A stretch of 64,000 bases of DNA from Candidatus Izemoplasmatales bacterium (lineage in GTDB: Bacteria; Bacillota_I; Bacilli_A; Izemoplasmatales; Hujiaoplasmataceae), in the NCBI GenBank assembly GCA_028691315.1, contig JAQUZN010000001.1, positions 57,238 through 121,237 on the forward strand, given 5' to 3'. Below are positions 4,026-39,755 of the stretch, piece after piece. Position 1 is the first letter of the stretch. Each line of letters opens with the position of its first letter. The position numbers were made by a program, and so were the translations under genes. The notes beneath the pieces were generated by a model. The model was not told the DNA's origin, searched no databases, and worked only from the letters and a program-made list of their open reading frames with translations.

Positions 4026-4057
4026 ATACCCCAACAGTTTTTGTTGGGGTATTTTAT
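4026..4057 (+). terminator. Intrinsic terminator
   Basis: An 11-bp perfect stem (ATACCCCAACA with TGTTGGGGTAT, 6-nt loop) is followed by a T-rich tail. It separates the Ig-like fibre gene from the giant fibre gene and overlaps the upstream-extended reading frame of the latter. This supports placing the giant gene's start at 4086. Confidence 0.85.
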
Positions 4058-4085
4058 TAGTAAAGACTTAAATAGGAGGACTGAA

Positions 4086-7000: not shown

Positions 7001-10000
7001 AGGTGATAAGGGTGATGCTGGTGTAGACTCTAAGTTAGTAACTATTAATTCATCCACTCAAGTATTTAAATCAATAGATGGTGGAATTACGTTTACTCCT
7101 AACACTATCGTATTAACTCCTAATTTCCAAGGTGGAATTAGTTATAGCTCTTGGCAATATAGTATCAATGGTGGATCTACCTGGGTTAATATTAGCTCTA
7201 ATTCTACTGGCGGTACTGGTAATATGATGATTGCCAGTAGTGTATTAACCATTAAGAAAGAATGTAATTTATTTACAACAGATCTTACTACACTATCTTT
7301 AAAATGTATTAGTAACAATTCTTCATATTTTGATATTGTTACCATAATGAAACTCTATGACGTGACTGATATTGCGATAGGTGGAGTTAACTTACTAAGA
7401 GACAGTGATTTTAATGTTTTAAATACCTCTTTTTGGAGAACAAGAGGTACGAATATGTATACACTGTCGATCGATTCTATAGAAACTTATAATGGAAGAA
7501 ATTCTTTAAAAATAGTATCAACTGTGGCTGGTTCTGAGGGTAATGATATGATGATAGGAACCACAGTGACCGCAAGTGCAGGAGAGAAATATATCTTATC
7601 TTTCTATGCAAAATCATCAGTTGCGACTGTATTCCGCATTCGATGGGGTTTTGTATCTAGTACCTTAAGAGCCGCATTAGATCTCACAACATCTTGGACA
7701 AGATATGAAGTTATTCTAGCAACAACTGGTATGTCACAAGCCCATAATTTCCTGTATGCTATTTCTGATAATGCTGGTACTATCTATCTTAATAGTCCAA
7801 AAATAGAAAGAGGAAATAAAGCTACTGATTATACGATAGCTCCTGAGGATTTAGATAAAAGAGTGACTGATATTAAAGTGGATGCGGATGCTACGAAAGG
7901 TCGTTTAGGATTAATCATTGCAAATAATTCGACTACTTCTAGTATCATCATGAAACCTGCTTTTATAGAAACTCTAACACCACAAATGGTTTATAAATCA
8001 CCAAATGATGATACAAAAACAATTATCGAAGGTGGTAAGTTTAAGACTCATGCCATTACTGCTGATATGATTGCTACGGATGCTCTTAAATCACTTAATT
8101 ATCAACCACCTATAGGTGATAGCGTATTTAGTACAGTAGGATCTTATTATGAATTGTCTACCGGTACTTTTCAGACACCATACTTTGCTGTCAATAATAC
8201 AGGAGCTTATATTGATGCTACGGTAACTATGAGAAGCGGTAAAATTGGTGATCTACTTACATCTTATTGGCAAGTAGAGACCGCTACAGATCGCAATGCT
8301 GTAAGTTATGCTTCAATAAGAGCTGTTGGCAATGCAATGATCTCTACAGGGAAATTGCAATTAACAGGGGATAAGTTAAGTTCTTATAATTATGGGAATT
8401 ATATCTTAAGAGGAAGTAACAATCGCTTTTATGATTTTGGTTTAAAAGTACCGGATGTGAATGCTGAAGATACAAGTATTCCAGCTAGTGTAAGAAATAA
8501 GTTTCTATATGTTAGACGTTCAAATAGTTCTACGATTCCATCGGCAGAAGTAGATTGGATTTATGATTTTGCTGTTGATGTAAATGATGGTATCATGGAA
8601 AATGGTGTATGGTTAAAAGATAAATATGCAAGTATTGATGGAGTGAATGGTACATATTTGCCACTTACGGGTGGTACAATCAGTGGTAGTTTAACGGTAC
8701 AAGGTGACTTGAATGCCAATGCTTCCTATGCTAAACAATTACTAAATAGCATTACGATTAATAATAAAGCATTTAATGGTTTAGAGAGTATTAATGTTGG
8801 TACAATAGGTGTTGGTTATGGTGGTACTGGTAAGACATCATGGACACAATATGGTATTGTATATGCATCTGCAAGTGGAACATTAGCGCAATTACCAGTC
8901 GGTACCAATAATCATGTATTAATTGGTAAAGGAAGTGCTGCTCCTGCGTGGATTGCGCAATCCGATTTAAGTGTTGGAATTGCAACAAAAGCCATTCAAG
9001 ATGAAGATGGTAATCCAATTAAAACCATGTATTTTAAGAATACTGGTGGAACTGTTGTTGGAGCTACTACTTTTGAAACTTCAGTGAATATCGATGATTT
9101 GACTAGTGGTAATCTATTAGTGCAAGGTAGTGCTCGATTTGTAAATGGGTTGATTGGTAATATTGATGGTTTAGCCACAAAAGCAACTCAAGATGCTTCT
9201 GGTAATATTATTACCGATACTTATATCAAAGGTTTAAGTATTTCTGGTAAAACTATTACTTATACTAGAGGTAATAATACCACTGGGACCATTGTTACAC
9301 AAGATACCACTTATGAAGCCGCAGGTGCAAACTTAGGTTTAATAAAAACCGGTGGAAATGTTAATGTATCTGGTGGAATTATTACAGTTCCAGATAATAG
9401 TCATAATCATACAATCGCAAATGTAACTAACTTACAAACCACTCTTGATGGTAAATCTCCATTAGCTGGCTCTCAATCATTAACTCAATTAGCTCAGACT
9501 ATCACATTAGGTGAAGGAAATGCAGCTACAATTTTACAGAATATGGGTAACATCCAACAAAAAATTGAAATAATAGATACTTCTACTGTTGGAGATCGTG
9601 TATTTACGTTTTCCCGATCTGTAAATAGCGGTACATCTTTTTCTACACTAATGGAAATTCGTAATGATGGGGTTGTATCTGCCAGTAATTTTTTAGGAAA
9701 CCTAATTGGTAACGCAGATACTGCCACGAAAGCTACACAAGATAGTGCTGGACAGCAGATTAATACTACTTATGTAAAAGAATTAAATTGGGTATCTAGT
9801 AAATTACAATATACAAAAGGTAATGGATCTAATGAAACGGTTACTATCCCCAATGCCACATCGTCTTCTGTTGGTTTAGTAAAAGCAAGTCCGAGCATAT
9901 CCGTCGATCCTGATGGACTTATGAATGTTAATGATGATGGTCATTATCATAATACTACAACAATAAAACCATTAATAGAAAAAACGTATACTGGTATTTA

Positions 10001-13000
10001 TGCATCAGTTTCTGATTTTAACAATGCTACCTTCTATTTTGGAGCTGTTAAACCTACGAATTGGGAGACACCATGGCATGTAAAATATAGAATTTTATCA
10101 TCAATACCAGGTCAACCAAATTATTCTGGTATGTTTATTGTCGATTTTTATGGTAATCAAGCAACTCGTGTTGCTTATAGTTGCTGGAATAATCATACTA
10201 ATACAAGTAATTTATCATTATATTATCATGTGTTATACAGTACAACTAGCACTGGAGTTACAAATGGGTATGGTCATCCAGTGGGTATAGGGCTTAGAAA
10301 TAGCACAAATCCCACAAACTCGGCTTATGCTAGAATATTTAAAATTGAAATTTTAGAAATTGATAATTGTAGTTTTGATAGTTTTGATACTATGAAATTA
10401 TACTCAGAAATTCCAGGATCAGGTTCTACTAATTATTCTGGATATACCGAATATGAAGGCTATGTTAATGGACTAAAAGAGAGTGGTGATGATAATACAT
10501 ATGATCGCTTAATTTTAAGTAATAATAGATTGATTGTTGGAGGAAGTGGCGTTGTTGGTACATCTCTAATAATGGAAGATGCGAATAATCAATGGCAATC
10601 TCTTGTTACTACTCGTAGTACCGGTACTACAAAAATCAAAAATACAATAGGATTCCACCCTCAACGTATTTATTATTATAATAGCGGAACGAATGTTGCA
10701 TCTGGAGATATGACAGCGACTTATACGGTATACAATTCTTATGTCGGTATTGATTTCCGGTATAACTCAAATTGCGGATCTACACTAGTTGCTTGGAAAC
10801 CAGTATACCTTAAAGGTGCCATGAACAATGGATTGTTTTATCTAGCCGATGTTTGGTATTCTCAAGAGCTACCAACAACAGATGATGGATTCGTATATAT
10901 ATATATCGGAGATGCATATAGTACAACTGCATGTAATTTTAACTCTACAAACCCAATCTATTGGTATAAAAATGGTTATGTGAGAATGTATCCAGAGACC
11001 GGAGTAAGCGTGACAGAGGATTATGTTCCTTCTGTTCGTGCCATTGCTGGAATTGATCTGGTAGATAATATTGCATCTACTGAATTAGTGAATGCATTAA
11101 AAGGAACAAGTGCTACTACATTATCAATTGGTAATCATGAGCATGGTTATACAAGTTCCATCCAGTTTGGCACAACCTCTGATATCTATGTTTCTAGTAA
11201 TAAAATTACAGTACCAAAAGTTACTTTAATTGATGCTATAGGCTTACCCACAGCAGATTCTTATGGATTATTTACACAAGCTGAGAAGGATAAATTGGCT
11301 AGTGTTGATGTTGGTAAGATTGGTATTAGTAGTGTCGCTGGTACATCACCTATTGTGACATCTACAGACTCTAATGGTAAAGCTACAATTGCTCATAGTA
11401 ATAGTGGAGTGATTGCTGGAGAATATGGTGCAACAATCACTGCGGATGAATTTGAAATTCCATCCTTTATAGTAAGCGCAACAGGTCATATTACAGCAAC
11501 CAATAAAGTTGCAATTAGTGCTGCTAATTTGGTAAATAGATTAGGAACCACTCCTGTAAACCGAGCAACTGCTGACGCATCTGGTAATGTTATTACTACA
11601 TATTATGCAAGAGTGAATGGTGCAAACGCTACTGGTACATGGGGGATAGGAATTTCCGGTAATGCAGCAACTGCCACTAAATGGGAGACAGCAAGCACTA
11701 TCACATTAACAGGCGCTGTGACCGGCAATGTAAGTATTGATGGTTCCGGCAATGTATCATTAGCAACAACAGTGAATCATACACATAATTATGTAAGCAC
11801 ATTGGCATTGGCGGGTGTTAATTTCAACGCTGCAAGTAACGTGATCACCGTTACCCGTGCAAATTTAGTAACAGCAATTGGTGTTGGAAATACAACAGAA
11901 ACAACTCCAGTAGCTATTGGTTTGATGACAGAAGCTGAACGAAATAAACTTGCAAATATCAATATTTCGGATATCGGCGTGATTGGAGCCAATACAATTA
12001 ATGGCGATGCACCTATCAATGTTGTTATAACACAACAAGGTATTGCAAATATCAGTCATAATAATAGTGGAGTATCAGTAGGAGCGTACGGGGCAACGCC
12101 AACCAATTATTTCCGTATTCCTAATATCACAGTAGATGCAAGAGGACATGTGACAGCTGCTACATATAATGATATTACGGCTGATAACTTGGTATCTCGT
12201 TTAGATATAACACCAGTAAATAGAGCAACTGCTGACGCATCTGGTAATGCTATTACCACATATTATGCAAGAGCTACTGGCACCAATGCAACTGGGACTT
12301 GGGATATTAGCATTACAGGCAATTCAGCAACTGCCACTAAATGGGCAACAGCAAGAACGATAACTCTTACTGGTGCTGTTACTGGATCGGTATCTATGGA
12401 TGGAACCGGTAATGTATCATTGGCAACAACGCTAACTACTCATACACATAATTATTTAAGCACTTTAACTTTAGCAGGTGTTAATTTTGACGTTGCAAGC
12501 AATGTAATTGCTATTACACAAGATAATTTAATCACTGCTATAGGAACTACTGGAACTGGGTTGATCTCATCAACTGAAAGGAGTAAGCTTGCTGGTATTG
12601 ATGTAGGTAAAATAGGGATTAGTAGTGTAGAAGGAACTGCTCCTATATCTACATCCACTGATACTAATGGTAAAGCTACCATTACTCATAATAATAGTGG
12701 AGTAACTGCTAATAGTTATGGCCCAAATTCCGAATATTTTTTCCGTATCCCCAATATCACAGTTGATGCAAGAGGGCATATTACATCTGCCACCTACTAT
12801 GATATTACATCTGCTAATATTGTAAGTAGATTGGGAGCCACTCCTGTAAATAGAGCGATTGCCGATGCTAGTGGTAATTATATCGAAAATACTTATTTAA
12901 AACTCGCTGGTGGAGAAATGACTGGACCTATTACATTGAATGGTCTTTATGCAAAGTCATTATCAAATATAACCACGGATTTTGATACCGTTGCTGATGG

Positions 13001-15050
13001 TATTTACCATACTTATACAGATAGTAATACTTCATCTAGAATTACAAATGCACCAATAAATAAAAGCCAAGTCTTGTTATCATTTATGCCATATTCATCT
13101 GGTTCTACTATTTATCGTACTCAAATGGTAATAGATTCAGAAGCTAATATGTTTTTACGAGGTAGTAGAGATAATAATACTTGGCGTACAATATTAACTT
13201 CTAAGAATTATGCGGCTTATACCGTGACTAAAACCGGTACAGGAGCAAGTGGCACATGGGGAATTGATATTAGTGGAAATGCCGCTACTGCTTCATCTGC
13301 TGTGAATGCAACAAGTGCAGGAAAAGCCACAAATGATTCTGATGGTAATCCTATTAATACCACATATCTAAAAAGAACAGGTGGAACAGTAACTGGAACC
13401 ACAACATTTGATACTCTTGTTGCTACTACTGGAACCATTACAAATTTAACAGTTTCTGGAACTTTGAATGCTACTTCCGATAAGGCATCTAAAGATGCTT
13501 TAGGAAATGTAATTGATACCACTTATACAAAAAGGGATGGGTCTAATGCTACAGGTACATGGGGAATTAATACTAGTGGTAATTCAGCAACTACCACTAA
13601 ATTTGCTACTACTCGTACCATTGCTATTTCTGGAGGTGCTACAGGGACTGCTACAGGATTCGATGGGACCTCAAATATATCAATTCCTATCACATCTTTA
13701 GATGCAGCTAAGTTAAGTGGAATTGCTACTATAAACACTACGGGAAGCGCTGCTAAATGGACAACACCAAGAACAGTCACGATTGGCGGTGGATTTACAG
13801 GTAATTTTAGCATAGATGGTTCTCAAAATGTAAATTTTGAATTGTTCAATTATTATGCTTGTGCTGTAGTTAATAATACGAATAACTATCCATTTCATCG
13901 AATAGCTAAAATCGATTTAGTTACGGCTGCTTACCGAGATTATAGTACAACACTATACATATCAAGAGATTATCAAGGCGGGTATTTTGGTATTGTTCGG
14001 ATTGCATTGAGAACCAATGGTGCAGGTCAACTTAGTGCAGTAGAAGCAAAGTGGTTGGTGTGTAGCGGATTTGACAAATCAGATCTTCAAATGGCTTGTT
14101 ATAATGTAAATGGAGAGACATACGTAGACGTATTTCTAAAAACTATTGGCGGTTATACGGGCGCAGTTATTAGAGATATTGGTTCAGGCAAAAGATCAAA
14201 TATTGTTGGTCGAGCGTGGGATTTAGTAGATTCAAATGAAAATAACAATACCACGTCAACTGATAAACTTTCATCTTATGAATGTTGGGCTAGTATTGAA
14301 GACGCTGGAATGGAATTGCATGGTCAACCATATTCTGTTATTCAAGAATCGACAGAAGCCGGAAAAGTCAATAATGCAAATACGGCTACTGATGCTACGA
14401 ATGTTATTGGTGGAACAGTTACAGCCAGTACATTAACCGTAAATAACACCTCTCAATTAAAAGGTGCTGTTACCATAACTGGAGCAACTACATTAAATAG
14501 CACATTAAATGTAACTGGATTGTCTACATTTACAGGTAAAACTACTCATAATGGAGGCTTACAATCCACTATTGGTCAATTCACTTCAACATTAGACGTA
14601 ACGGGGATCACTACGTTAAATAACACATTAAACGTAACTGGATTATCCACTTTTACAGGTAAAACTGTTCATAATAATGGAATAGAAGCTAAATACGTAG
14701 ATGCATATGATTATATATCGGCTAATCCGGCAACCGCTTCTTCATCTGGTGGTTTAGCATTATGGGGTAGAAATCCATTAAATAATGGTATTACTATGAG
14801 AATGAATACTGAACTTGGAACTCATGGATATATTAATCATACACATGCTATCTATATGATAAGTGGCACTTCTCATGCCACAAATAATATGGGATGGATA
14901 TTCAGAAGCTCAAATAAGGATATGAATATAGCATCAATATCCGATAAAGGAGATGCTCAATTCGATGGTAAAGTAAAAATAGGTGGAAACTCAGGAGTAG
15001 AATTAGTATATAATGAAATCACCAAGAGTTTAGACTTTGTATTTGCTTAA
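4086..15050 (+). CDS. Giant modular tail fibre (3,654 aa)
   Basis: The frame is open from 4041 (a TTG), but the supported start is the ATG at 4086 after TAGGAGGACTGAA; the longer form would begin inside a terminator hairpin. Order of modules: an N-terminal SFGKIVITK docking module; a beta module repeated at residues about 285-400 and 985-1100; an IGGRNL/IGGVNLL carbohydrate-binding-like jelly roll after each repeat, each ending in a (D)WTPAPEDID-type phrase; IYQ-x-S-SSGT Ig-like pieces; a GVGYGGTGKT fibre motif near residue 1,575; then many fibre repeats of the type ATADASGN-x-ITTYYAR and NATGTWGI-x-ISGNAATATK to the C-terminus. The end (about the last 110 residues) looks like a compact tip domain. 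This is a classic long receptor-binding fibre layout. Attachment to surface glycans is inferred from the jelly-roll modules. Confidence 0.88.
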   Translation: MATQTSFGKIVITKIEDALKVSIETSSQFFKSSNGITYTPNEIVLTPSFTGKATFKNWQVSSDAGATWTTFGTIDGISIATVNGVPNCLKILNTSSIFNNTTKMVIFRVNINEDINIYDVMSIAKITDGTNGADGYNSQVLYLYKRSVSIPTIDWSGNLTFNFTNNTLSPIPSGWSREIPAENGQALYVTVATAYSTSLSDTIAKNEWSAPVLMNVGITGEEITYQQSSSGTIVPTNTWLLTIPAINPGEYLWTKTVIVYSDGKKSSPAYSVSQMGNTGISAKSVDISTSTQIFKSTDGGITFAPDTIVLNPIFQGGISYNMWQYSIDGGSTWVNITSNNTGGTGNMMIASGVLTVKKECDLFTNIITSISLKCISNDTNISDTITIVKLYDVTDIQIGGRNLVINSTGNLGSTIKWTNAPNLNSVSVVTGGGVNGNNSIKLVSPSSASARAYVSQPIISRMNLSTISYMTLGFWYKASTDNDIYGVGMFLRITNSAMYDTLNTTSKLVVDNQWHYATITQDLSQFRNDSDVISASLFIFAYKGTVEYSCIKLETGNKNTDWTPAPEDIDQGIADVAIHQILLSNENQSITTNSNGATTSKIDVKSDITCYKGTTQVAGIIGTLTCKDANGNTISTGISLAKTNPTASVSGTVTFTINSGTNLATDYGSVVIPITVEGKTYTKLLSWSKSKTGLTGDTGVGVSGSEIKYQKSSSGTTPPTGTWSDSPVAPDLGGYVWVRTTTFYTNGTESVAYNVSRSGSNGSVGQNGLNVATVQLFKRVSTDISNHNTTSNPSTFPDVVVYYFNDVGANKAGSVIGTTNGWTTTIPSGSDPVYTITTTAAVQYPTNSVSIPRASWSDVIRYAENGSMILLSNECQTFEADMDGKAFATTFDSFVYGYIGTTLADVEIGSITKPTGMTITVNQTKTATYSAKLTFSISNAFVSPTGSINIPIKIVNNGVETIKQFSYSLSKKGDKGDAGVDSKLVTINSSTQVFKSIDGGITFTPNTIVLTPNFQGGISYSSWQYSINGGSTWVNISSNSTGGTGNMMIASSVLTIKKECNLFTTDLTTLSLKCISNNSSYFDIVTIMKLYDVTDIAIGGVNLLRDSDFNVLNTSFWRTRGTNMYTLSIDSIETYNGRNSLKIVSTVAGSEGNDMMIGTTVTASAGEKYILSFYAKSSVATVFRIRWGFVSSTLRAALDLTTSWTRYEVILATTGMSQAHNFLYAISDNAGTIYLNSPKIERGNKATDYTIAPEDLDKRVTDIKVDADATKGRLGLIIANNSTTSSIIMKPAFIETLTPQMVYKSPNDDTKTIIEGGKFKTHAITADMIATDALKSLNYQPPIGDSVFSTVGSYYELSTGTFQTPYFAVNNTGAYIDATVTMRSGKIGDLLTSYWQVETATDRNAVSYASIRAVGNAMISTGKLQLTGDKLSSYNYGNYILRGSNNRFYDFGLKVPDVNAEDTSIPASVRNKFLYVRRSNSSTIPSAEVDWIYDFAVDVNDGIMENGVWLKDKYASIDGVNGTYLPLTGGTISGSLTVQGDLNANASYAKQLLNSITINNKAFNGLESINVGTIGVGYGGTGKTSWTQYGIVYASASGTLAQLPVGTNNHVLIGKGSAAPAWIAQSDLSVGIATKAIQDEDGNPIKTMYFKNTGGTVVGATTFETSVNIDDLTSGNLLVQGSARFVNGLIGNIDGLATKATQDASGNIITDTYIKGLSISGKTITYTRGNNTTGTIVTQDTTYEAAGANLGLIKTGGNVNVSGGIITVPDNSHNHTIANVTNLQTTLDGKSPLAGSQSLTQLAQTITLGEGNAATILQNMGNIQQKIEIIDTSTVGDRVFTFSRSVNSGTSFSTLMEIRNDGVVSASNFLGNLIGNADTATKATQDSAGQQINTTYVKELNWVSSKLQYTKGNGSNETVTIPNATSSSVGLVKASPSISVDPDGLMNVNDDGHYHNTTTIKPLIEKTYTGIYASVSDFNNATFYFGAVKPTNWETPWHVKYRILSSIPGQPNYSGMFIVDFYGNQATRVAYSCWNNHTNTSNLSLYYHVLYSTTSTGVTNGYGHPVGIGLRNSTNPTNSAYARIFKIEILEIDNCSFDSFDTMKLYSEIPGSGSTNYSGYTEYEGYVNGLKESGDDNTYDRLILSNNRLIVGGSGVVGTSLIMEDANNQWQSLVTTRSTGTTKIKNTIGFHPQRIYYYNSGTNVASGDMTATYTVYNSYVGIDFRYNSNCGSTLVAWKPVYLKGAMNNGLFYLADVWYSQELPTTDDGFVYIYIGDAYSTTACNFNSTNPIYWYKNGYVRMYPETGVSVTEDYVPSVRAIAGIDLVDNIASTELVNALKGTSATTLSIGNHEHGYTSSIQFGTTSDIYVSSNKITVPKVTLIDAIGLPTADSYGLFTQAEKDKLASVDVGKIGISSVAGTSPIVTSTDSNGKATIAHSNSGVIAGEYGATITADEFEIPSFIVSATGHITATNKVAISAANLVNRLGTTPVNRATADASGNVITTYYARVNGANATGTWGIGISGNAATATKWETASTITLTGAVTGNVSIDGSGNVSLATTVNHTHNYVSTLALAGVNFNAASNVITVTRANLVTAIGVGNTTETTPVAIGLMTEAERNKLANINISDIGVIGANTINGDAPINVVITQQGIANISHNNSGVSVGAYGATPTNYFRIPNITVDARGHVTAATYNDITADNLVSRLDITPVNRATADASGNAITTYYARATGTNATGTWDISITGNSATATKWATARTITLTGAVTGSVSMDGTGNVSLATTLTTHTHNYLSTLTLAGVNFDVASNVIAITQDNLITAIGTTGTGLISSTERSKLAGIDVGKIGISSVEGTAPISTSTDTNGKATITHNNSGVTANSYGPNSEYFFRIPNITVDARGHITSATYYDITSANIVSRLGATPVNRAIADASGNYIENTYLKLAGGEMTGPITLNGLYAKSLSNITTDFDTVADGIYHTYTDSNTSSRITNAPINKSQVLLSFMPYSSGSTIYRTQMVIDSEANMFLRGSRDNNTWRTILTSKNYAAYTVTKTGTGASGTWGIDISGNAATASSAVNATSAGKATNDSDGNPINTTYLKRTGGTVTGTTTFDTLVATTGTITNLTVSGTLNATSDKASKDALGNVIDTTYTKRDGSNATGTWGINTSGNSATTTKFATTRTIAISGGATGTATGFDGTSNISIPITSLDAAKLSGIATINTTGSAAKWTTPRTVTIGGGFTGNFSIDGSQNVNFELFNYYACAVVNNTNNYPFHRIAKIDLVTAAYRDYSTTLYISRDYQGGYFGIVRIALRTNGAGQLSAVEAKWLVCSGFDKSDLQMACYNVNGETYVDVFLKTIGGYTGAVIRDIGSGKRSNIVGRAWDLVDSNENNNTTSTDKLSSYECWASIEDAGMELHGQPYSVIQESTEAGKVNNANTATDATNVIGGTVTASTLTVNNTSQLKGAVTITGATTLNSTLNVTGLSTFTGKTTHNGGLQSTIGQFTSTLDVTGITTLNNTLNVTGLSTFTGKTVHNNGIEAKYVDAYDYISANPATASSSGGLALWGRNPLNNGITMRMNTELGTHGYINHTHAIYMISGTSHATNNMGWIFRSSNKDMNIASISDKGDAQFDGKVKIGGNSGVELVYNEITKSLDFVFA
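4945..5300 (+). repeat. Fibre duplication, copy 1
   Basis: This segment aligns with 7045-7400 at a constant 2,100-nt offset with no gap. For example, GGTGGATCTAC at 5070-5080 recurs at 7170-7180. Both copies encode a module with QYSI-x-GGSTWVNI and TGGTGNMMIAS followed by an IGG-x-NL jelly-roll start. Confidence 0.85.
7045..7400 (+). repeat. Fibre duplication, copy 2
   Basis: This is the second copy of the module at 4945-5300, similar at the DNA level and in frame. Similarity falls away sharply after IGGVNLL, as it does after IGGRNL in copy 1, marking the module edge. Confidence 0.85.
11280..12900 (+). repeat. Tandem fibre-shaft modules (about 650 nt units)
   Basis: Three successive units share the phrases ISSV-x-GT-x-PI or a related opening, HNNSGV, FRIPNITVDARGH-x-T, RLG-x-TPVNRA-x-ADASGN and YYAR. 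The DNA phrases GCAACTGCTGACGCATCTGG and TATTATGCAAGAG recur exactly at about 11.57 and 12.23 kb. They are recombination-prone fibre-shaft repeats inside the giant fibre gene. Confidence 0.75.
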
Positions 15051-29435: not shown

Positions 29436-31196
29436 TTACTCCAGATATTTATTATGCTGAGGATTTAATAGTAACACTTGATTAGCTGTAGCCATAGGAA
29501 TGATAACTTTCTTAATAGCATCTAAGATTGTGATATCGCTATCAATACTACAAAGAACTTTTTCTCCATCTCGATTACCTGTTCTTAAATTAACAGGACT
29601 TCCCTGTTTAAAATTATCTTCTATTAAAGAATCAACATTGCCACCATAATTTAATGCATATAAATTATAAATCACTTCTTCATATGCAGCATACATGATA
29701 TGAACACAATTTAAATAGAGATCTTTCCGTTCATCATCTTCATACATCATCGCATCATATTTATCATATAATTCATCAGTCGCACGAAATCCTTCAAAAT
29801 TACTACCATAACCAACACCATTCTTAGCCGCTGATCTACAATTTAATACTGCATCTTCCGCTAAGTCTTTCATAGAATCTCTATCAATAACAGAAATTCC
29901 ACCGATCAAATAGTCTACCATATTGGCTTTCAAACTATTCAATCTTCTACGAAGATTTCCAATAACTCCAACACTTTCACTATTCTTAATAGAGTATTCC
30001 AATTCTTTCTCTAAGAAGTTTAATAACCCTTCATAAGCAGAGCTATATTTCCGATTACCATCTTCATCAATCTCATCAGAAAACATATCTTTTGGATTGA
30101 TAAACTTTGTTTTCATATTATCACAAATAATTTGGTCGCAAGTACCATACCATTCTGATATATTTTCGATAGAAGGAGCTTTACCATCTTCAATATCTTT
30201 CTGCTGAACAACAGGATCAATATATTTATTGATTGTACGTCCACCACAAAGATTTACAATGTCATGATATTGATCAATCTGTTTATTTAATCCAGCAATA
30301 ATTAATACTGGTGGTTTCATATTCTCTGGTACAGAATACAAAATCTTCTCTAATTCTGTTAATAAAGCATTTGCATCTCTCGATACACTTGGAGCCATAA
30401 TAACAGTTGGAATATAACCACTTGGATTTTGCTCACTAAATGGAAGAATGATATTTTCATATAGAATCTTTTCCATATAGCTAATCATCTCTGGAGTATC
30501 AACTGGATCTGTAAAGGTGTATAATCTAGGTTTACGAATATCGACAACACCATCTTCACTATTAATATATGCAGGTGAAGTATAACCTCTTTCTAAGGTC
30601 AAACCATCATATGCTTTTACTTTATTTTCTGAATCATTTGACGTTTGAATGGTTATAAAGACGTTTTTACCGAATTCTTGATAGATTGTAGCGATGTCGT
30701 CACTAATCTCTTTATTTCCATTTGTAGAGATCATACAGATGTCTCTTACGCTGTCCACAGAAAACTCTTGTTTATGAGAAAGTATCATTTCTTTGATTTC
30801 TTCAATGATTTTATCCATAGTTCTCACAAATTGAAATACTGGAACTTCTTCATTCTCTTTGAGATAATTACAAATCTTTTCAAATACACTTGCACACATC
30901 ATAACGGTTGAAGTGGTTCCATCACCCACTGTTTTCACAATATGTTCTGTTACTTCAACCAATTGTGTTTGAATGGATTTCTCTAAGGGATTAAAGAAAT
31001 CGATATGAGATAATACTTTATGACCATCTTTTGTATAAGTATCTGGTTTACCCTGACCTGGATCTCCTAAGATAATGGTATTATTACCATAAGGTCCAGC
31101 TGTCATTGCTAGTGTTTCTGATATTTTCTTTAAAGTCATTAACTGCACATTTCTTAAATTATCCTGATCTACTATGTTTGAGAATAAGTCTTTCAT
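29436..31196 (-). CDS. Divergent phage GroEL-type chaperonin (586 aa)
   Basis: The protein shows the group I chaperonin equatorial-domain signatures. GPYGNNTII (34-42) corresponds to the GPKGRNV loop, and GDGTTST (91-97) is the ATP-hydrolysis motif. SLKANMVDYLIGGISVIDRD-SMKDLAEDAVLNCRSAAKNGVGYG (about 421-464) matches the GroEL segment around its catalytic aspartate, here Asp448. The apical part (about 200-340) is poorly conserved. No GroES is visible in the window. The gene overlaps the upstream 31193-31906 gene by 4 nt (ATGA), so the two are translationally coupled. Phage chaperonins are known to fold virion proteins without a co-chaperonin. Its likely clients are the large capsid and fibre proteins encoded nearby. 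Confidence 0.9.
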   Translation of the reverse strand: MKDLFSNIVDQDNLRNVQLMTLKKISETLAMTAGPYGNNTIILGDPGQGKPDTYTKDGHKVLSHIDFFNPLEKSIQTQLVEVTEHIVKTVGDGTTSTVMMCASVFEKICNYLKENEEVPVFQFVRTMDKIIEEIKEMILSHKQEFSVDSVRDICMISTNGNKEISDDIATIYQEFGKNVFITIQTSNDSENKVKAYDGLTLERGYTSPAYINSEDGVVDIRKPRLYTFTDPVDTPEMISYMEKILYENIILPFSEQNPSGYIPTVIMAPSVSRDANALLTELEKILYSVPENMKPPVLIIAGLNKQIDQYHDIVNLCGGRTINKYIDPVVQQKDIEDGKAPSIENISEWYGTCDQIICDNMKTKFINPKDMFSDEIDEDGNRKYSSAYEGLLNFLEKELEYSIKNSESVGVIGNLRRRLNSLKANMVDYLIGGISVIDRDSMKDLAEDAVLNCRSAAKNGVGYGSNFEGFRATDELYDKYDAMMYEDDERKDLYLNCVHIMYAAYEEVIYNLYALNYGGNVDSLIEDNFKQGSPVNLRTGNRDGEKVLCSIDSDITILDAIKKVIIPMATANQVLLLNPQHNKYLE

Positions 31197-32943: not shown

Positions 32944-33390
32944 ATGTCTAAAAAACCACACGTAATCGATATCAATACAAAATCAAAAAGAGATATCTTT
33001 TTCGTAGCAAAGAACAACACAGAGGCGACATGTATCTTTAAAACACAAGATTTTGATGCTGCAATGAATCGTGCAAATCAAGCGAAAGGAACTTACTATG
33101 TATATAATAGTAAGGGTCAGATCATGTATGTCTCAGATTCAAAAAGTGCGCAAAAAGAGGTCGAGAGCCTTAATATTCATGAGGGCCTATCTATCTCTGC
33201 GAAAGGTATTAATGTTTACTCTATTTCAAGTAACACAATCCCAGATAGTGCATATCACGGCATCTTACATATCGATAGTCCTGTCATGATGTGTGATAAA
33301 TATAAAGTACGTACAGAAGAAGAATATCCAAGATATTTATGGTGTAAAAAGTGTGACATCGAACGATATCTTTTAAGTCATAAAAAATAA
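32944..33390 (+). CDS. Hypothetical protein with C-terminal Cys cluster
   Basis: The 148-aa protein starts after TTGGAGGAATAAT-ATG. Residues 20-75 are rich in Asp, Asn and Lys, and VYNSKGQIMYVSDSK looks like a beta-hairpin. The C-terminal 40 residues hold four Cys or His candidates (MMCDKYKV...YLWCKKCDIERYLL), hinting at a small zinc site. It is a single + strand gene between - strand runs, with its own terminator. No family is recognised. Confidence 0.72.
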   Translation: MSKKPHVIDINTKSKRDIFFVAKNNTEATCIFKTQDFDAAMNRANQAKGTYYVYNSKGQIMYVSDSKSAQKEVESLNIHEGLSISAKGINVYSISSNTIPDSAYHGILHIDSPVMMCDKYKVRTEEEYPRYLWCKKCDIERYLLSHKK

Positions 33391-33396
33391 ACAAAG

Positions 33397-33436
33397 AATA
33401 CTGTATAGGAGTTATTTCCTATACAGTATTTTTATT
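33397..33436. terminator. Bidirectional terminator
   Basis: A perfect 14-bp stem (33397-33410 with 33417-33430, loop GTTATT) is followed by TTTATT. It lies between convergent genes and overlaps the end of the DUF5662 gene. Confidence 0.9.
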
Positions 33437-34037
33437 ATAGTTTTCTTGTAGAACCATCCGTATTATAATACTCGTAATAGAGTGCTAATACTTTGATGAC
33501 AGTTTCTTCTTGTTTCTTACCAAGCTTGATTTTATGTTTATTTTTTTCATACCATTCGATTGCATTTTCTTTGTTATCATGCTCTTGATAAAAATGCATA
33601 CTCATAGCAATCCAGTCTGCACACATTTCTAAAACAAAACTGATAGGCATTGTTTCTCTATGACCATTATCAGCCCACCAATCCCAATGATGCATGTTGT
33701 GATTTTTATGATGATCCCAAGCTTTCTCAAAATTCTGTACATTGTCTTCTTTTTCAGCATCATCTATCGGAAAGAAGTTTTTCCGATAAGATTCAAATTC
33801 AGCTTTTGAGAATTTAGATGAATCGTGTTCCATTACTTGAGAGCTTGTTGTGTTGAGAATATTCATCACTTCATCTAACGTAAATTTATGAATTTCCGTC
33901 AATACGCTTTTCAGTTTATCAATAGCATGAAGATTTCTCCATACGAATTGCACATTCTTAATATGATTATTTATGTAGATACGATATTCATCTCGTTTTC
34001 TTACTGCTTGTAGTTCTAATTCTCTTGATGTGGCCAT
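33435..34037 (-). CDS. DUF5662 (HD-like) protein
   Basis: The 200-aa protein starts after TTAGGAGGATTTC-ATG. It has the DUF5662 pattern: an N-terminal helix with HIKNVQFVWRNL, then MEHDSSKFS (about residues 89-97), HHKNHNMHHWDWW (about 128-140) and CADWIAMSMHF. The His/Asp arrangement (HD, HHxxH, D) resembles metal-dependent HD-domain phosphohydrolases, so nucleotide or phosphate-ester hydrolysis is plausible. The family is frequent in Firmicute phages, but its substrate is not established. Confidence 0.75.
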   Translation of the reverse strand: MATSRELELQAVRKRDEYRIYINNHIKNVQFVWRNLHAIDKLKSVLTEIHKFTLDEVMNILNTTSSQVMEHDSSKFSKAEFESYRKNFFPIDDAEKEDNVQNFEKAWDHHKNHNMHHWDWWADNGHRETMPISFVLEMCADWIAMSMHFYQEHDNKENAIEWYEKNKHKIKLGKKQEETVIKVLALYYEYYNTDGSTRKL

Positions 34038-34153
34038 GAAATCCTCCTAAGTAACCTTTTTAACTCAAAAAATAAAAACTTAAATACTGAGTATTTAGAA
34101 CTTTTATTTATATTGAGATATCCAGCTTCTTTCATGTAATTATAACCTTCCTT

Positions 34154-34468
34154 TTAGCAGGCTTCATCTTTCTCAACGATAAGATCCATTTCATATTGAT
34201 GAGCACACATATTCTCAATCAGGCATCCTCTTGCATCTTTCCACCCCTCTGCAAAATATACAACATCAGCAGTAGACATCAACGCTAATGACTGAGATAA
34301 ATACCACAATGGTTTAGATTCTGCTGGAACACCCTGTATAAAAGATTCAATTACTTCAACTTCTTCTCCGATATATTCAGTTGCTCTCTTAATTGCTCTT
34401 TCTCTAACCTCTAAAATTTCCTCGTCTGTTTTACCTTTCATTGGTTGTGAAATATAAAGTTTTTTCAT
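34154..34468 (-). CDS. DUF4406 (nucleoside deoxyribosyltransferase-like) protein
   Basis: The 104-aa protein begins MKKLYISQPMKGKTDEEI and carries DVVYFAEGWKDARGCLIE near residues 70-88. Both are diagnostic of DUF4406, a small Rossmann-like family related to nucleoside 2-deoxyribosyltransferases. Its length is normal for the family. It may act in nucleotide salvage or base modification; no substrate can be inferred. It starts after GAAAGGATAATACAGAAT-ATG, with a promoter-like motif at 34505-34524. Confidence 0.75.
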   Translation of the reverse strand: MKKLYISQPMKGKTDEEILEVRERAIKRATEYIGEEVEVIESFIQGVPAESKPLWYLSQSLALMSTADVVYFAEGWKDARGCLIENMCAHQYEMDLIVEKDEAC

Positions 34469-34504
34469 ATTCTGTATTATCCTTTCTTTCCCTTATTGGG
34501 AGAT

Positions 34505-34524
34505 CTAAATTTATTATATTGTAA
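34505..34524 (-). promoter_or_regulatory. Promoter-like motif upstream of DUF4406 gene
   Basis: On the - strand it reads TTACAATATAATAAATTTAG, 37 nt before the start codon. It matches the recurrent ACAATATARTAAWTT motif seen before other phage genes in this window. Confidence 0.5.
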
Positions 34525-34548
34525 TATCATTTATAAATGATAAAATAC

Positions 34549-34576
34549 CCGCTATGAACCATAAAGCTCATAGCGG
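34549..34576 (-). terminator. Intrinsic terminator of the holin gene
   Basis: A perfect 9-bp GC-rich stem (34549-34557 with 34568-34576) is followed on the - strand by GTATTTTATC, just after the holin stop. Confidence 0.85.
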
Positions 34577-34596
34577 AATATTATACAAAAAATAAA

Positions 34597-34935
34597 CTAT
34601 TCGTCTTTTGTTTCGTCTTCTTTCTTCCCTAAGAACTTATCGGCAAAAGAAGAAGCAAATGTGCCATTTGCAAAGATGTTTCTACCAGCAGAATGAATAC
34701 CTACTGCGGTAATAGCACTTGCAAGACCTTCAATCAATGTGACAATGATATTATCACTTGATATCGGATAGCTAATAACAATAGCACAAATAATACCAAT
34801 TACAATTAAGATAACTGGAATAATTTCATTTGCTACTTTATCAAGAAATTTCAGATGTTTAATAGCTGCACCTACTAGCAGCAGTAAGATTACTACCTGG
34901 ATATTAAGCGCGATGTCAATACTCCCAAACGTCAT
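34597..34935 (-). CDS. Putative holin
   Basis: The 112-aa protein has three likely membrane spans (about residues 10-27, 36-55 and 60-85). IIPVILIVIGIICAIVI and EGLASAITAVGIHSAGRNIF match the pattern of clostridial phage holins of the Phage_holin_5_2 type, and the C-terminal tail is charged (LGKKEDETKDE). It would permeabilise the cell membrane to release the endolysin, which is encoded far away at 48871. The ribosome site AAAGGAGG is paired inside a 12-bp hairpin (34944-34988), suggesting translational control of lysis timing. The 36-bp-period repeat array lies directly upstream on the same strand. Confidence 0.7.
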   Translation of the reverse strand: MTFGSIDIALNIQVVILLLLVGAAIKHLKFLDKVANEIIPVILIVIGIICAIVISYPISSDNIIVTLIEGLASAITAVGIHSAGRNIFANGTFASSFADKFLGKKEDETKDE

Positions 34936-34943
34936 TTAAATTC

Positions 34944-34988
34944 TACCTCCTTTAATATGTAAGATTTACTCTAATGTTAAAGGAGGTA
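34944..34988 (-). promoter_or_regulatory. Hairpin sequestering the holin ribosome site
   Basis: TACCTCCTTTAA (34944-34955) and TTAAAGGAGGTA (34977-34988) form a perfect 12-bp inverted repeat with a 21-nt loop. On the - strand mRNA, the 3' arm is the Shine-Dalgarno of the holin, 9-10 nt before its ATG. The 5' arm is an anti-SD, so folding would block translation. Confidence 0.75.
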
Positions 34989-35044
34989 CTTCTTAACTTA
35001 AAAAAGTTTTATCATTAGTCCAATTGATATAAATAGTATTCTGT

Positions 35045-35528
35045 GATTCTTTAACAATGTTTGAAATATTATTCAATTCTGAATCTTTTTCTTCGTCTGA
35101 AATTTTAGTAAAGCTTGAATCTTTACTTCCCTATGAAATAATAATGAGTATTGAATCTTTTTCTATAGGTGAAATTTTAGTTTTATGTGAATCTTTATTT
35201 GTTGTTGAAATTATAGGTGTTAGTGAATCATTATCCGCTTCTGAAATATTTTAAAAACCAGATTCTTTTTGTCTCTATGAAAAATTGATGGGTTTGAATC
35301 TTTATGTTGGTATGAAAATTTAAATAATCACGAATCATTTAATTCGCTTGAAATTTTATAATATCATGGTTCGTTCCCTCCTTTGAAATATTAAGTTTCT
35401 ATAACTCTTTACGCCTCATTGAAATTTTAGTTATAGATGAATCTTTACCTACTCCAGAAATTTTAAATAATGTTGAATCTTTAACTATTGGTGAAATATT
35501 ATCCACTATTGAATCGTTCGACTGTAAG
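35045..35528 (-). repeat. TIGR-like array: 36-bp units with two alternating 9-nt motifs
   Basis: On the + strand, box A (consensus GAATCTTTA) starts at 35045, 35081, 35117, 35153, 35189, 35225, 35261, 35296, 35332, 35368, 35403, 35439, 35475 and 35511. Box B (consensus GAAATTTTA) starts at 35063, 35099, 35135, 35171, 35207, 35243, 35279, 35314, 35350, 35385, 35421, 35457 and 35493. Of 26 successive intervals, 24 are exactly 18 nt and two are 17. The first eight bases of box A are exact in 7 of 14 copies; all 13 box B copies start GAAA. The 9-nt stretches between boxes are different in every unit. Read as RNA from the - strand, the unit is TAAAGATTC, 9-nt spacer, TAAAATTTC, 9-nt spacer. Copies near 35368 and 35403 are the most decayed. 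The - strand is preferred because a promoter-like element lies just upstream. The layout equals that described for tandem interspaced guide RNA arrays (36-nt guides with two spacers). Protein-binding iterons are the main alternative. Confidence 0.8.
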
Positions 35529-35548
35529 TGGATTAGTTATTACACTAT

Positions 35549-35567
35549 TATAATATATCATTGAAAA
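35549..35567 (-). promoter_or_regulatory. Promoter-like element reading into the repeat array
   Basis: The 15-mer CAATGATATATTATA on the - strand (35549-35563) is identical to one at 46602-46616, which lies 29 nt before a - strand gene. It also fits the wider ACAATATARTA motif family. It sits 21 nt upstream of the last array unit, with a terminator for the preceding gene just before it. Confidence 0.55.
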
Positions 35568-35574
35568 ATATAAT

Positions 35575-35609
35575 AATTCCTACTTCCCATAATCAGAGAA
35601 GTAGGAATT
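35575..35609 (-). terminator. Intrinsic terminator upstream of the array
   Basis: A perfect 12-bp stem (35575-35586 with 35598-35609) is followed on the - strand by ATTATATTTTTC. It ends the 35615-36805 transcript and insulates the array from it. Confidence 0.88.
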
Positions 35610-35614
35610 TTAGT

Positions 35615-36805
35615 TTAATAGTAAGTATTCATCGTCGTATTATTTTGAGACATCTGTTGTAATGCATTATAGTCAACGAATAACCCATACATCTTTCTAA
35701 TGTAAACAGATTTTTCAGATAAATCTTCACGAAGTTTTGAGTATTTATCAAATACAGATTCCCAACGTTTTCTTTCTTTATCTGATAAATCATCATTCTC
35801 CATTAGATAAGCATCTAAGATACCCATACGACTATTGATCTGTCTCATTAATAACAATGCATCATTTTGAGTTTCAATATTACGAATTCTCATCTTATAT
35901 TCATAAAGATCATCTTCAATAGATTTCAATCCATCTAATTTAATCTTTGTGAAGAATCCAGGTTTTGTAGATTCTGTTGCATAGGTATCTACAAAGTTCC
36001 AGAAAGCTCCTTCAATATTACTAATTACTAAAGAGAGTTTTCTCTTAAATAATTTAGAAGTACTATATGAAACTGACTTCTTTAACATGATAATCGTAGA
36101 ACGATCCTTATCAAGAGAACGATAGATATTTAAATACCATTGCAGTAGGAGGCATTTAAAATCCCCAACTTTAGTATCCATTTCAGGAATCGCTTTCTGA
36201 ATTTGAAGTAAAGCATCTTCTACACCATTTGTAACATATCCACCAAACTCTTTACAGAAGATGCTATTGTTATATCTCATAGTTTCAAACATAACAAATT
36301 CGAACAATGCTTTACATTTATCATAAGAACTCTGATCAAAGGTATCATCCTTTTCGTAAACAAAATAATTTAATTGGTTGATAAATTCTTCAATCGGTTT
36401 AACTCCTGTATAATTATTTACTTCTTCCACAATGATATTTGTAATATCAAGCGCACATAATCCAATCATTGGATCAAATAGCTTATCATCAATTTCTAAA
36501 TAGAATTTATCAAATGGCTGTAAAACAGTTTCTGGATTAAATAAAACACCATCTATCTTATTTGAATCATTAAAAAATGGATATATTCTAGTTCCAAAAA
36601 ATTCACTGTCTGTATTCTCTGTGATCATAACATCTAAGCATCGGAATCTAGGAAATAATTCTGTCAACTCTTTCTGTATCGTATCACAGACCAATCTCAT
36701 TTTCTCTTTTGGCCTTTCTTCATCATTCACCACAAACATCAATTGCTGTGTCATATTATCTATATGATTCTGTCCATCTTCACGACCAATCATAATAGGT
36801 TCCAT
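35615..36805 (-). CDS. Protein of unknown function between capsid gene and array
   Basis: The frame is open from 36811, but that ATG is only 2 nt after the ribosome site (AAAGGAGAT). The ATG at 36805 (MEPIMIGREDGQ) fits better, giving 396 aa. The first half is mixed alpha/beta. PMIGLCALDITNIIVEEVNNYTG (about 115-137) aligns by eye with zincin-like LTxxEITAIILHEIGH helices, but without the HExxH metal ligands. The second half is helical with a coiled coil (GLKSIEDDLYEYKMRIRN to SEKSVYIRKMYGLFVDY). Position after the major capsid gene suggests a virion protein. It is also the nearest protein to the repeat array on the same strand, so a divergent array partner cannot be excluded. No Nop-domain signature was recognised. 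Confidence 0.72.
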   Translation of the reverse strand: MEPIMIGREDGQNHIDNMTQQLMFVVNDEERPKEKMRLVCDTIQKELTELFPRFRCLDVMITENTDSEFFGTRIYPFFNDSNKIDGVLFNPETVLQPFDKFYLEIDDKLFDPMIGLCALDITNIIVEEVNNYTGVKPIEEFINQLNYFVYEKDDTFDQSSYDKCKALFEFVMFETMRYNNSIFCKEFGGYVTNGVEDALLQIQKAIPEMDTKVGDFKCLLLQWYLNIYRSLDKDRSTIIMLKKSVSYSTSKLFKRKLSLVISNIEGAFWNFVDTYATESTKPGFFTKIKLDGLKSIEDDLYEYKMRIRNIETQNDALLLMRQINSRMGILDAYLMENDDLSDKERKRWESVFDKYSKLREDLSEKSVYIRKMYGLFVDYNALQQMSQNNTTMNTYY

Positions 36806-36826
36806 ATTCATATCTCCTTTCGGTCA

Positions 36827-36845
36827 TTTACATTACTAATATGTT
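36827..36845 (-). promoter_or_regulatory. Promoter-like motif upstream of the 35615-36805 gene
   Basis: The - strand reads AACATATTAGTAATGTAAA, 22 nt before the start. It shares the TAGTAAT(n)TAAA half with the motifs at 43708 and 59002. Confidence 0.45.
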
Positions 36846-36874
36846 TCCGAATGTAAGGAAAAAGAGGCAATAAA

Positions 36875-36908
36875 ATATGGAGAGCAGGTCTAAGCCCACT
36901 CTCCATAT
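36875..36908 (-). terminator. Terminator of the major capsid gene
   Basis: A 10-bp stem (ATATGGAGAG, 36875-36884, with CTCTCCATAT, 36899-36908) is followed on the - strand by TTTTATTG. Confidence 0.85.
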
Positions 36909-36922
36909 CATAAGTACGTTTA

Positions 36923-38695
36923 TTAAGAAATAGCTTTGGTCTGGATGAAGTTGTATCTCTCCGGACGAATTCCAGAAGGATTCAAGATCTTAACACGACC
37001 CTGTACCGGTGTATACTCTACAAATTTCCATCTTTCGAAGGAATGAATTGCAGGCAGTGCCGGATTATCTGCATTACGAATCTCATTGCTGATATATAGC
37101 TGATAATCGTAAATACGATACATAATTCTTTCTGTTCCACGAGGATTCAGAACAACAATAAACTCATCTGTTCCACGAAGTTTATCAGAACCAATAAACT
37201 GATATACTCTTCTAGAAGAAGATACAACAGTTCTTGTATAGTCCAGTTCAACCGGACCAATGTTTGCAGGTGTCTGATAGGTCCATGCCGTAGGAGTAAT
37301 CTTACGAACCATATCCGGATCACCATAAACAGAAATAACAACGTTCGGATCATTCAGTTTCTGGATAAGATCAGTCGCAAAACTCTCAAAGTAGTCAAGG
37401 AATGTCTTATATCTCCATTCTACATGATCCAGTGCATAACCTTCCCTCGGTGCATAATCGAACTGACCGTATTCAGAATTACTAGAATCCATTCCACGGA
37501 AAGAGGTATCGAGATGCTGACGGATTTTATCATCTTTATAGTTAGCCATAACAGTCTTAGTCATAGACATGATTTTGGTAACCTGGTTTACATTATACAT
37601 AGCAGAGATATCTTTTACTTCTTCCGGAGTAACGGTTGTGTTAATCGGGATAGCGTTCGGGATCTCAACGATATCAGTTACTTCTTTCCATTTTACATGA
37701 GTTGTTGTAGCTCTTGCATTGGAAGTATCCAATCTGGAAGTAACACGAACTGCTGCAACTTTACCCTTCAGAGCAAAGATATTTAGACGGTTATTTTCCA
37801 TTGTACCTGTGAAAATTTCTTTTACTGTCGTAACAACAACATCTGAAGCCGGTTTGGATTTGTGCTGATACTCAAATGTATACATCAGAGCACGCTCAGT
37901 TTTGCCATAAACCGGAGTAAACGGTACATTTACACGTACCCATACATCATGCGTTTCACCATCAGCAGTTGTACAGATTGACCCATCGTATTCAACGAAT
38001 CCGGCTGCGTTAGGAAGGATATCACCTTTTTCAAAGAATACATCAGCAACTTTAACAGCAGAAATAGCAGTTTCAATCGACAGATTGTCTGCACCTGCAA
38101 GACCACCAAGCTTGTCATGAACAATTTCAATGTCATCTGTCAAAGGCAGAGTAACATCAAATGTAGTCAGAGCAGCCGTAGCATCGATTGCAGCCGTCAG
38201 TTTATTCTGATCTTTGAAGAAATCCAACTCATTACCCTGAGTATCAACCAAAATACGATACTGCATAGAGATCGGGAATTTCGGCTGCTGAGCAACGAAC
38301 TTCGGAATGGAACCTTTATCAAATACCATGTTCATCAGGATCCATTTGTGCATTGGGAATGCCATACCTACCATCGGAGCAATGCTTGCACCGTTTGTAT
38401 GCTCAAGCAGAGCCTCACGGTCATTCTCAAACAGAGCCTCCATATCAGTAATATGTTCCTGATAAGCTTCAGGTGTCATACCTTCTGGATCTGCGGATTC
38501 GTTAACAAAGAATTCTTTCAGAGCCTCCAGAGAAGCTTTCTTATTCATTGCACGAGCAGGATCCATGTAAAAATCGACTGCGGCTTCACTATATACGTTC
38601 TGAATAGTATTCAGATAAGACTCGCAGAATGGTTTCATCGGATTATTGCTATAACCAGAAGCAATATTTTTAATTGGTCTTTCGCCAGCTAACAT
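36923..38695 (-). CDS. Major capsid protein (probable)
   Basis: The 590-aa protein starts after AAAGGAGAAATAAAT-ATG. Its codon use is clearly richer in G and C (many CCG, GTA and ACC codons) than its neighbours, as expected for the most abundant virion protein. The N-terminal region is helical and charged (about 1-110, a possible scaffold-interacting delta domain). Then come long beta-rich stretches with FPISMQYRILVDTQGNELDFF, VYGDPDMVRKITPTAWTYQTP and SSRRVYQFIGSDKLRGTDEFIVVLNPRGTERIMYRIYDYQLYISNEI, which fits the P-domain and A-domain of an HK97-fold shell protein. It has its own promoter-like motif and terminator. The prohead protease and the acidic scaffold-like protein lie within 7 kb. 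Confidence 0.75.
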   Translation of the reverse strand: MLAGERPIKNIASGYSNNPMKPFCESYLNTIQNVYSEAAVDFYMDPARAMNKKASLEALKEFFVNESADPEGMTPEAYQEHITDMEALFENDREALLEHTNGASIAPMVGMAFPMHKWILMNMVFDKGSIPKFVAQQPKFPISMQYRILVDTQGNELDFFKDQNKLTAAIDATAALTTFDVTLPLTDDIEIVHDKLGGLAGADNLSIETAISAVKVADVFFEKGDILPNAAGFVEYDGSICTTADGETHDVWVRVNVPFTPVYGKTERALMYTFEYQHKSKPASDVVVTTVKEIFTGTMENNRLNIFALKGKVAAVRVTSRLDTSNARATTTHVKWKEVTDIVEIPNAIPINTTVTPEEVKDISAMYNVNQVTKIMSMTKTVMANYKDDKIRQHLDTSFRGMDSSNSEYGQFDYAPREGYALDHVEWRYKTFLDYFESFATDLIQKLNDPNVVISVYGDPDMVRKITPTAWTYQTPANIGPVELDYTRTVVSSSRRVYQFIGSDKLRGTDEFIVVLNPRGTERIMYRIYDYQLYISNEIRNADNPALPAIHSFERWKFVEYTPVQGRVKILNPSGIRPERYNFIQTKAIS

Positions 38696-38888: not shown

Positions 38889-39755
38889 TTAGAAAAAATG
38901 ATCAAATAAAATAGGATTTGATTGAATATTGGATAGAGTTTCTTTAAAAGCTATGAAATTATAATCCATCATTCCATTTGGTATTGCAAAAACAATATGT
39001 TTTATATTGCTAATCCAATGAGTGGTTTTTAATATATTTTTAAAAATTTCAGCCACTTCATATGGGTTTTGCCCAAATACTCCGCATCCATAAGCTCCCA
39101 ATATAAGAGTTCTTACATTATTACAATCAGCAATACTCAAAACAAATCTAACTCTATCATACATCACTTGATAATTTTCTTCATTAGAAACTTTACAGTA
39201 TTTCTGCGCTGCTTTTTTGTTTGGTGCTGCACAAGTGATAATATCACATAAACAATCATCACGAAATATGATATCCGGTGAATATAAAGCTCGATTTAAG
39301 TACAATGCTCTGTTTAGATGATGCCTATTAAATTCATAATAACTATTATCAAAATAATTTAATACGTTAAATAGATAAGAATCTATACATAAAGCTTCTT
39401 CTTGAGCAGTTGATCCATCTAAAAATCTACCTCCAGGATTTTTAAATGATGCAAAATTTAATGCAGCTATTTTACCGAATTCAGGTTTGTAAAAATGTTG
39501 AATTGCAGTTACCGTATCCATATTAACTATTTCAATAGTTGGGAATTGATAATATGGCTCGCATGATAAAAAATCATTTGATATTAATCCCATACAACGA
39601 TTCCATTCTCTCGATAACTTTTTATCATCAAAAAACAACGTATTTTTTATAGATTGTTCTATATGATACTGATATCTTTCTTGCATAATACCAGTATGAA
39701 AAATCGCTCGCGTTTTTCTATCTATAGGGTTTAATTGATATTCATTATCTTTCAT
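38889..39755 (-). CDS. PARG/macrodomain-type ADP-ribosyl hydrolase (TIGR02452-like)
   Basis: The 288-aa protein has the microbial poly(ADP-ribose) glycohydrolase layout: an N-terminal helical part (DUF2263-like), then ALNFASFKNPGGRFLDGSTAQEEALC (residues 98-123) with the PARG QEE catalytic pair (Glu119 and Glu120), YSPDIIFRDD (158-167), CAAPNKKAA (175-183) and LGAYGCGVFGQNPYEVAEIF (219-238). The usual PGGG loop reads PGGR here (Arg110), a change in the ADP-ribose-binding loop. It would remove ADP-ribose from proteins or nucleic acids. In phages this could reverse DarT-like or other ADP-ribosylating defences, which is inference. A LNRALY repeat occurs twice in a row (147-158). It sits as a single-gene unit between the capsid gene and the 39846-43686 operon. 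Confidence 0.82.
   Translation of the reverse strand: MKDNEYQLNPIDRKTRAIFHTGIMQERYQYHIEQSIKNTLFFDDKKLSREWNRCMGLISNDFLSCEPYYQFPTIEIVNMDTVTAIQHFYKPEFGKIAALNFASFKNPGGRFLDGSTAQEEALCIDSYLFNVLNYFDNSYYEFNRHHLNRALYLNRALYSPDIIFRDDCLCDIITCAAPNKKAAQKYCKVSNEENYQVMYDRVRFVLSIADCNNVRTLILGAYGCGVFGQNPYEVAEIFKNILKTTHWISNIKHIVFAIPNGMMDYNFIAFKETLSNIQSNPILFDHFF

Follow-up and report, generated by a model that had tools for sequence, protein, structure and literature searches.

According to the founding paper (Faure et al. 2025, PMC12045711), each 36-nt RNA bound by a Tas protein carries two spacers, which base-pair at a single site, one with either DNA strand. TIGR-Tas arrays consist of two alternating repeats of 8-12 nt with spacers of ~8-9 nt in a 36-nt unit. 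The main text of the paper describes the guide arrays as usually adjacent to the tas gene, a layout that is not part of the TIGR-Tas definition, with some arrays split into subarrays about 450 nt apart. Mining there covered 5 kb on each side of tas, so that arrays lying farther away would have been invisible to that step. The words jumbo, huge phage and orphan are absent from that main text, and no description of distal TIGR arrays was found in the literature searches made, which included word searches of PMC12045711 and PMC12385481. Here we describe a 64,000-nt stretch of DNA (the window; positions 57238-121237 of contig C189, part of a 2.42-Mb metagenome bin) which carries an array of two alternating short repeats that we call A1. 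A1 is very probably a TIGR array of a circular phage genome. Its likely guide strand is the minus strand, from which 36-nt dual-spacer RNAs would be made to direct a remote TasA protein, predicted to be nuclease-less, to DNA. What is new is the layout, in which several arrays are scattered over a giant phage genome with one remote tas gene.

The system resembles TIGR-TasA, TIGR-TasR and TIGR-TasH, as presented in the main text of PMC12045711, in its 36-nt unit of short spacers between two alternating repeats of ~10 nt, in the box C-like end of the repeats, in its phage setting and in the Nop-fold Tas protein encoded in the same genome. It differs from them in having four separate array loci 56-99 kb from tas instead of up- or downstream of it, in repeats that end in UCA where theirs end in CCA, and in a helical insertion of ~145 residues in Tas. 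The TasH system of Salicola phage CGphi29 (NC_020844; PDB 21kl) has the same 10-nt repeats, 8-nt spacers and 36-nt period and its protein falls in the same PHROG family, 4285, but its array lies directly downstream of tas and its Tas bears an N-terminal HNH nuclease. CRISPR arrays also combine regular repeats with variable spacers; they are built on a single repeat of 25-36 nt, whereas two alternating 10-nt repeats and a Nop-fold effector are found here.

The following elements define A1, in window coordinates:

35044..35519, minus strand (probable): TIGR array A1, 13 dual-spacer units with 14 edge and 13 loop repeats
35510..35519, minus strand: first edge repeat in guide-strand order, degenerate in its 5' half (GAACGATTCA)
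35044..35053, minus strand: last edge repeat in guide-strand order (TAAAGAATCA)

A first-pass annotation made from the window alone had proposed a TIGR array here, in which 14 TGAATCTTTA-like motifs (box A) alternate strictly with 13 TGAAATTTTA-like ones (box B). Our analysis reproduced this alternation, the 18-nt start-to-start spacing in 24 of 26 intervals (17 nt in the remaining two), the GAAA of all 13 box B motifs, the GAATCTTT of 7 of the 14 box A motifs, and the decayed repeats, which are edges at 35367 and 35402. The partition into 9-nt repeats and 9-nt spacers did not hold, conservation giving 10-nt repeats and 8-nt spacers (two exceptions of 7 nt), and while the 26 guide segments exist as 26 spacers, they make up 13 dual-spacer units. 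On the likely guide strand, the edge repeat reads TAAAGATTCA and the loop repeat TAAWATTTCA. The chain fit gave 29 elements for A1, the first two of which (35008 and 35026) were dropped as poor matches. Self-similarity at 36 nt, measured over a 360-nt span, reached 0.547 at 35092, compared to a maximum of 0.406 and a mean of 0.374 in 100 first-order Markov windows of 64 kb, and Tandem Repeats Finder also reported period 36 at A1. A 65-aa open frame that crosses the A1 repeats (35057-35254, plus strand) was taken as spurious, and Rfam gave no match at the gathering threshold over 33000-37000.

The contig that carries the window is 246,077 bp long with a GC content of 0.318 and has identical 127-base ends, from which we read it as a 245,950-bp circle. 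It encodes an RNA polymerase beta subunit of 1690 aa (phrog_3148, E 2e-136), a major head protein, a holin, a ribonucleotide reductase and a chaperonin-like protein, and is a large phage genome. The ATP synthase beta gene of the bin is closest to that of an Acholeplasmataceae genome (82%), a common bin being no proof of host.

By the first-pass annotation, a genome lacking any Tas or Nop-domain protein would have spoken against a TIGR array; such a protein is present on the same circular contig. It is an open frame of 487 aa that matches PHROG family 4285 (C189:244826-245998, E 2.1e-32), as does the structurally solved TasH of CGphi29. Because this family is labelled 'transposase' and also has matches in 3 of 14 control genomes, the match alone is not proof. 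Pfam Nop (PF01798) had no match in the whole assembly. The best structural matches of an AlphaFold2 model of the protein were TIGR TasR and TasH. The Nop-type part that aligns begins after a mere 57 residues, the first 48 of them modelled with low confidence; no N-terminal HNH or RuvC nuclease domain was recognised, and Pfam gave nothing beyond a sub-threshold Transposase_20 match. This places the protein in the TasA subtype, predicted to be nuclease-less, and since no N-terminal nuclease was recognised, guided binding rather than cutting would be its most likely activity. The helical insertion (about residues 175-320 of the protein, P0123) lies inside the Nop-type fold and is common to long relatives and absent from TasH.

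Identity as an IS110 transposase was considered and rejected. The alignment begins at residue 125 of IS621 and residue 58 of the phage protein and does not reach an N-terminal RuvC-like DEDD domain, for which the 57 residues before the common fold are too few, and the IS110 recombinases IS621 and ISCro4 use one bridge RNA, in contrast to the guide arrays found here. PF02371 matched the assembly in three places: an IS110-like match on contig C6, the tas gene below the cut-off, and contig C119, where a sub-threshold Transposase_20 match lies in the bin outside the phage contig (G000:C119:9321-9449).

Four arrays with common repeats, 43 units in all, were found on the phage contig, at about 92 kb from tas around the circle for A1 and, for the other three, as follows:

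C189:187930-188590: A2, 18 units, flanked by the RNA polymerase beta gene on one side and by a 168-aa gene in convergent orientation on the other; 56 kb from tas
C189:181515-181850: A3, 9 units, after a gene with a PemK/MazF-like domain; 63 kb from tas
C189:145307-145406: A4, 3 units, the last (third) degenerate; 99 kb from tas

These are the arrays that were fitted by the chain fit and backed by a search for the edge-N8-loop pattern; an earlier profile scan had drifted into many false clusters, from which only A1-A4 were retained. Allowing up to 2 mismatches, the pattern had 33 matches in the whole assembly, of which 31 fell inside A1-A4; of the other two, one lay at a separate place on the phage contig and one on contig C205. 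The reversed-pattern control gave 1. Truncated terminal edges with a terminator after them are typical of TIGR-Tas arrays, though not required of them; by eye, A3 is followed by a hairpin with a T run. Since there is one tas gene and it is far from every array, one protein would draw on all of these dispersed guide banks. The arrays with their common repeats, the tas gene on the same circular contig and a predicted structure closest to TasR and TasH bear out the TIGR proposal, and a TIGR-TasA system in this phage is well supported.

Relatives of the system were obtained by alignment searches in IMG/VR, which gave 4 loci and then 456 relatives, 80 of which were kept, several of the loci being duplicates. 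A single-sequence search with TasA found no relatives in IMG/VR or INPHARED, and an alignment search of GTDB contigs found none. A strict array pattern had no match in IMG/VR, and a search of 396 related genomes returned only the source genome itself; no close relative of the phage was found in the collections searched. At 71 of 83 TasA-relative loci there was a clear array with a period of 35 to 37, and at 62 of 83 an array lay within 1.5 kb of tas, as judged by an autocorrelation screen with some false positives (L057, for example) and misses (L038 and L053 carry units). Seven tas-bearing phage contigs of 53-194 kb could be read almost whole, and 4 of these 7 had arrays more than 5 kb from tas, at distances of about 7-51 kb:

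G397: array at 74-76 kb, tas at 87 kb
G398: array at 80 kb, tas at 104 kb
G400: second array roughly 7 kb on
G401: weaker array at 49 kb, tas at 100 kb

The other three (G396, G399, G403) had no array more than 5 kb from tas at the threshold used. A signal at G398:1680 is a coding repeat and was set aside.

The relatives also bear on the strand. A1 had been read on the plus strand in the first-pass annotation; because of the repeat grammar of arrays in other phages, the guide strand is instead likely the minus strand. When 87 loci were scanned on both strands, GAGCGAGCC-type edges were found at 56 (5 duplicates), in all 56 cases in the direction of tas. Read in this direction, the relatives' repeats mostly end in CCA, CCG or UCA, and positions 3 and 8, the box C/D pair expected to link the two ends of each repeat, are Watson-Crick partners in 50 of 56 consensus repeats, derived from 27 of the 32 loci tried (5 gave none; the two of L072 are out of register and were retained in the 56). 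At L029, L047 and L024, the last of which has the edge AAAAGATTCA, a hairpin with a T run was seen by eye after the last edge, and the same was seen at L022 in the sense of the neighbouring gene. In the four arrays of this phage, read on the corresponding strand, edge and loop repeats have the box C end in common: CA or CG is kept in 79 of 86 repeats (39/43 edges and 40/43 loops), and position 2 is A in 42/43 edges and 43/43 loops. Terminators and truncated repeats, at first read on the plus strand, gave no clear answer, as they look similar on either strand and hairpins flank the arrays on both sides; that reading was dropped once the relatives pointed to the minus strand.

Around A1, the minus strand reads in the order head-protein gene, 398-aa gene, terminator-like hairpin, A1, holin:

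36923..38695, minus strand: major head protein, upstream of the 398-aa gene (phrog_20655, E 1.3e-27)
35615..36811, minus strand: 398-aa protein, upstream neighbour of A1 on the guide strand
35575..35609, minus strand: terminator-like hairpin between the 398-aa gene and A1 (14 pairs, loop 7)
34597..34935, minus strand: holin, first gene downstream of A1 (PF16079 E 1.7e-8; phrog_1129 E 6.9e-11)
34548..34577, minus strand: terminator-like hairpin after the holin, from the terminator scan

The 398-aa protein has no PHROG match and only sub-threshold matches in Pfam. It has a homologue (28% identity) in L022, a 15-kb phage fragment in which the homologue is followed by one small unrelated gene and then a period-36 array, all on the same strand; tas was not found in that fragment. 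Elsewhere in the window, 29436-31196 encodes a divergent phage-encoded chaperonin-like protein (Cpn60_TCP1, E 4e-15) and 38889-39755 a protein with a microbial PARG (poly(ADP-ribose) glycohydrolase) domain (PF10021, E 1.3e-23), for which a role in counter-defence is only a guess. Two very long open frames, at window 4041-15050 and C189:169147-180453 (3669 and 3768 aa), are perhaps virion or tail proteins.

Most spacers of the 43 units differ, both within and between arrays. All first spacers are unique except for one duplicated unit, while the second spacers include 5 identical pairs, compared to a mean of 0.05 and a maximum of 2 in 2000 shuffled runs, and in 4 of these 5 pairs the first spacers differ. 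Second spacers are purine-rich in A1-A3 (0.61-0.72, with first spacers at 0.46-0.49), and both are at 0.50 in A4; across 51 distinct relatives the two kinds of spacer differ little (0.553 and 0.527). The target geometry used in the searches, with the reverse complement of spacer B placed after spacer A, was deduced from the cut sites and overhangs given in the main text of PMC12045711, and since the deduction is our own, both spacer orders were run, with gaps of 0-2. All 43 units were searched against the phage's own genome and 40 guides against other sequences, two with 7-nt spacers and one duplicate being left out.

These searches and several other results weigh against the reading of A1 as part of a working TIGR-TasA system on the minus strand. 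In the phage's own genome the guides matched no better than shuffled pairs. Exact targets numbered 0 in 603,626 bases of bin loci (1 and 0 for shuffled pairs) and 0 in 2,000,842 bases from the loci of other phages (0 for shuffled pairs); with one mismatch allowed, neither set gave more matches than the shuffled pairs did. The nearest array is 56 kb from tas, in contrast to the adjacent layout that has been published, and Foldseek gave modest TM-scores, 0.20-0.38 by query and 0.35-0.66 by target. With respect to strand, a cruder count of box C triplets (n=62) gave 41 sense, 19 ties and 2 antisense, and positions 3 and 8 pair with each other in 39/43 edges of this phage but in only 25/43 loops. 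The terminator scan found no terminator-like site on the guide strand in the interval from A1 to the holin.

Three other explanations were weighed against this one. The alternating repeats could be iterons, operator or partition DNA sites bound by a phage protein with no guide RNA involved, and their AT-rich, short and regularly spaced repeats, intergenic position and partial re-use of spacers would fit; we consider this very improbable, as a Tas protein is encoded on the same contig, two-repeat 36-nt arrays adjoin tas at most of the 83 related loci, and most spacers differ within and between arrays. Somewhat less improbable is that the distant arrays are decaying remnants, disused relics of a locus that was formerly adjacent to tas. 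The distance to tas, the two decayed edges of A1 and the degenerate third unit of A4 speak for decay, whereas the CA or CG end is largely intact across the four arrays, tas is a full open frame, and distal arrays are also kept in G397, G398 and, more weakly, G401.

A third explanation, unlikely though the least so of the three, accepts the arrays as true TIGR arrays and has them aimed mainly at the genome that encodes them, where they would act in RNA-guided regulation or in organising that genome. A1 adjoins the head and holin genes, and a TasA without a recognised N-terminal nuclease need not kill when it binds the phage's own DNA; the same failure of real guides to outperform shuffled pairs on the phage genome argues against such self-targeting.

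Returning to guides delivered to a remote TasA, the arrays would be expressed, in the case of A1 perhaps on a transcript shared with the head-protein or holin genes, and the transcripts cut within the edge repeats into 36-nt guides. TasA dimers could then collect guides from the four loci in trans. At a single 16-bp site, each of the two spacers of one guide would pair with a different strand, as shown for TasR, and the nuclease-less complex may block or bend the DNA it is led to, so that a gene is repressed or a competing element is kept from replicating. More tentatively, and with slightly less than even confidence, we propose a distributed TIGR network in which arrays behind unrelated genes load one remote TasA in trans and grow by half-guide swaps through the loop repeat, such swapping being suggested by the re-use of second spacers with different first spacers.

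Half-guide re-use bears on a question left open in the main text of the founding paper, the origin and growth of TIGR arrays (PMC12045711). As a handle for further searches, the relatives and this phage offer 10-nt repeats mostly ending in CA, with a 36-nt period, read in the direction of tas. If arrays work tens of kilobases from tas, surveys of a few kilobases around tas would miss part of the guide repertoire, and, if this is true, an array deserves attention even when no tas lies close to it.
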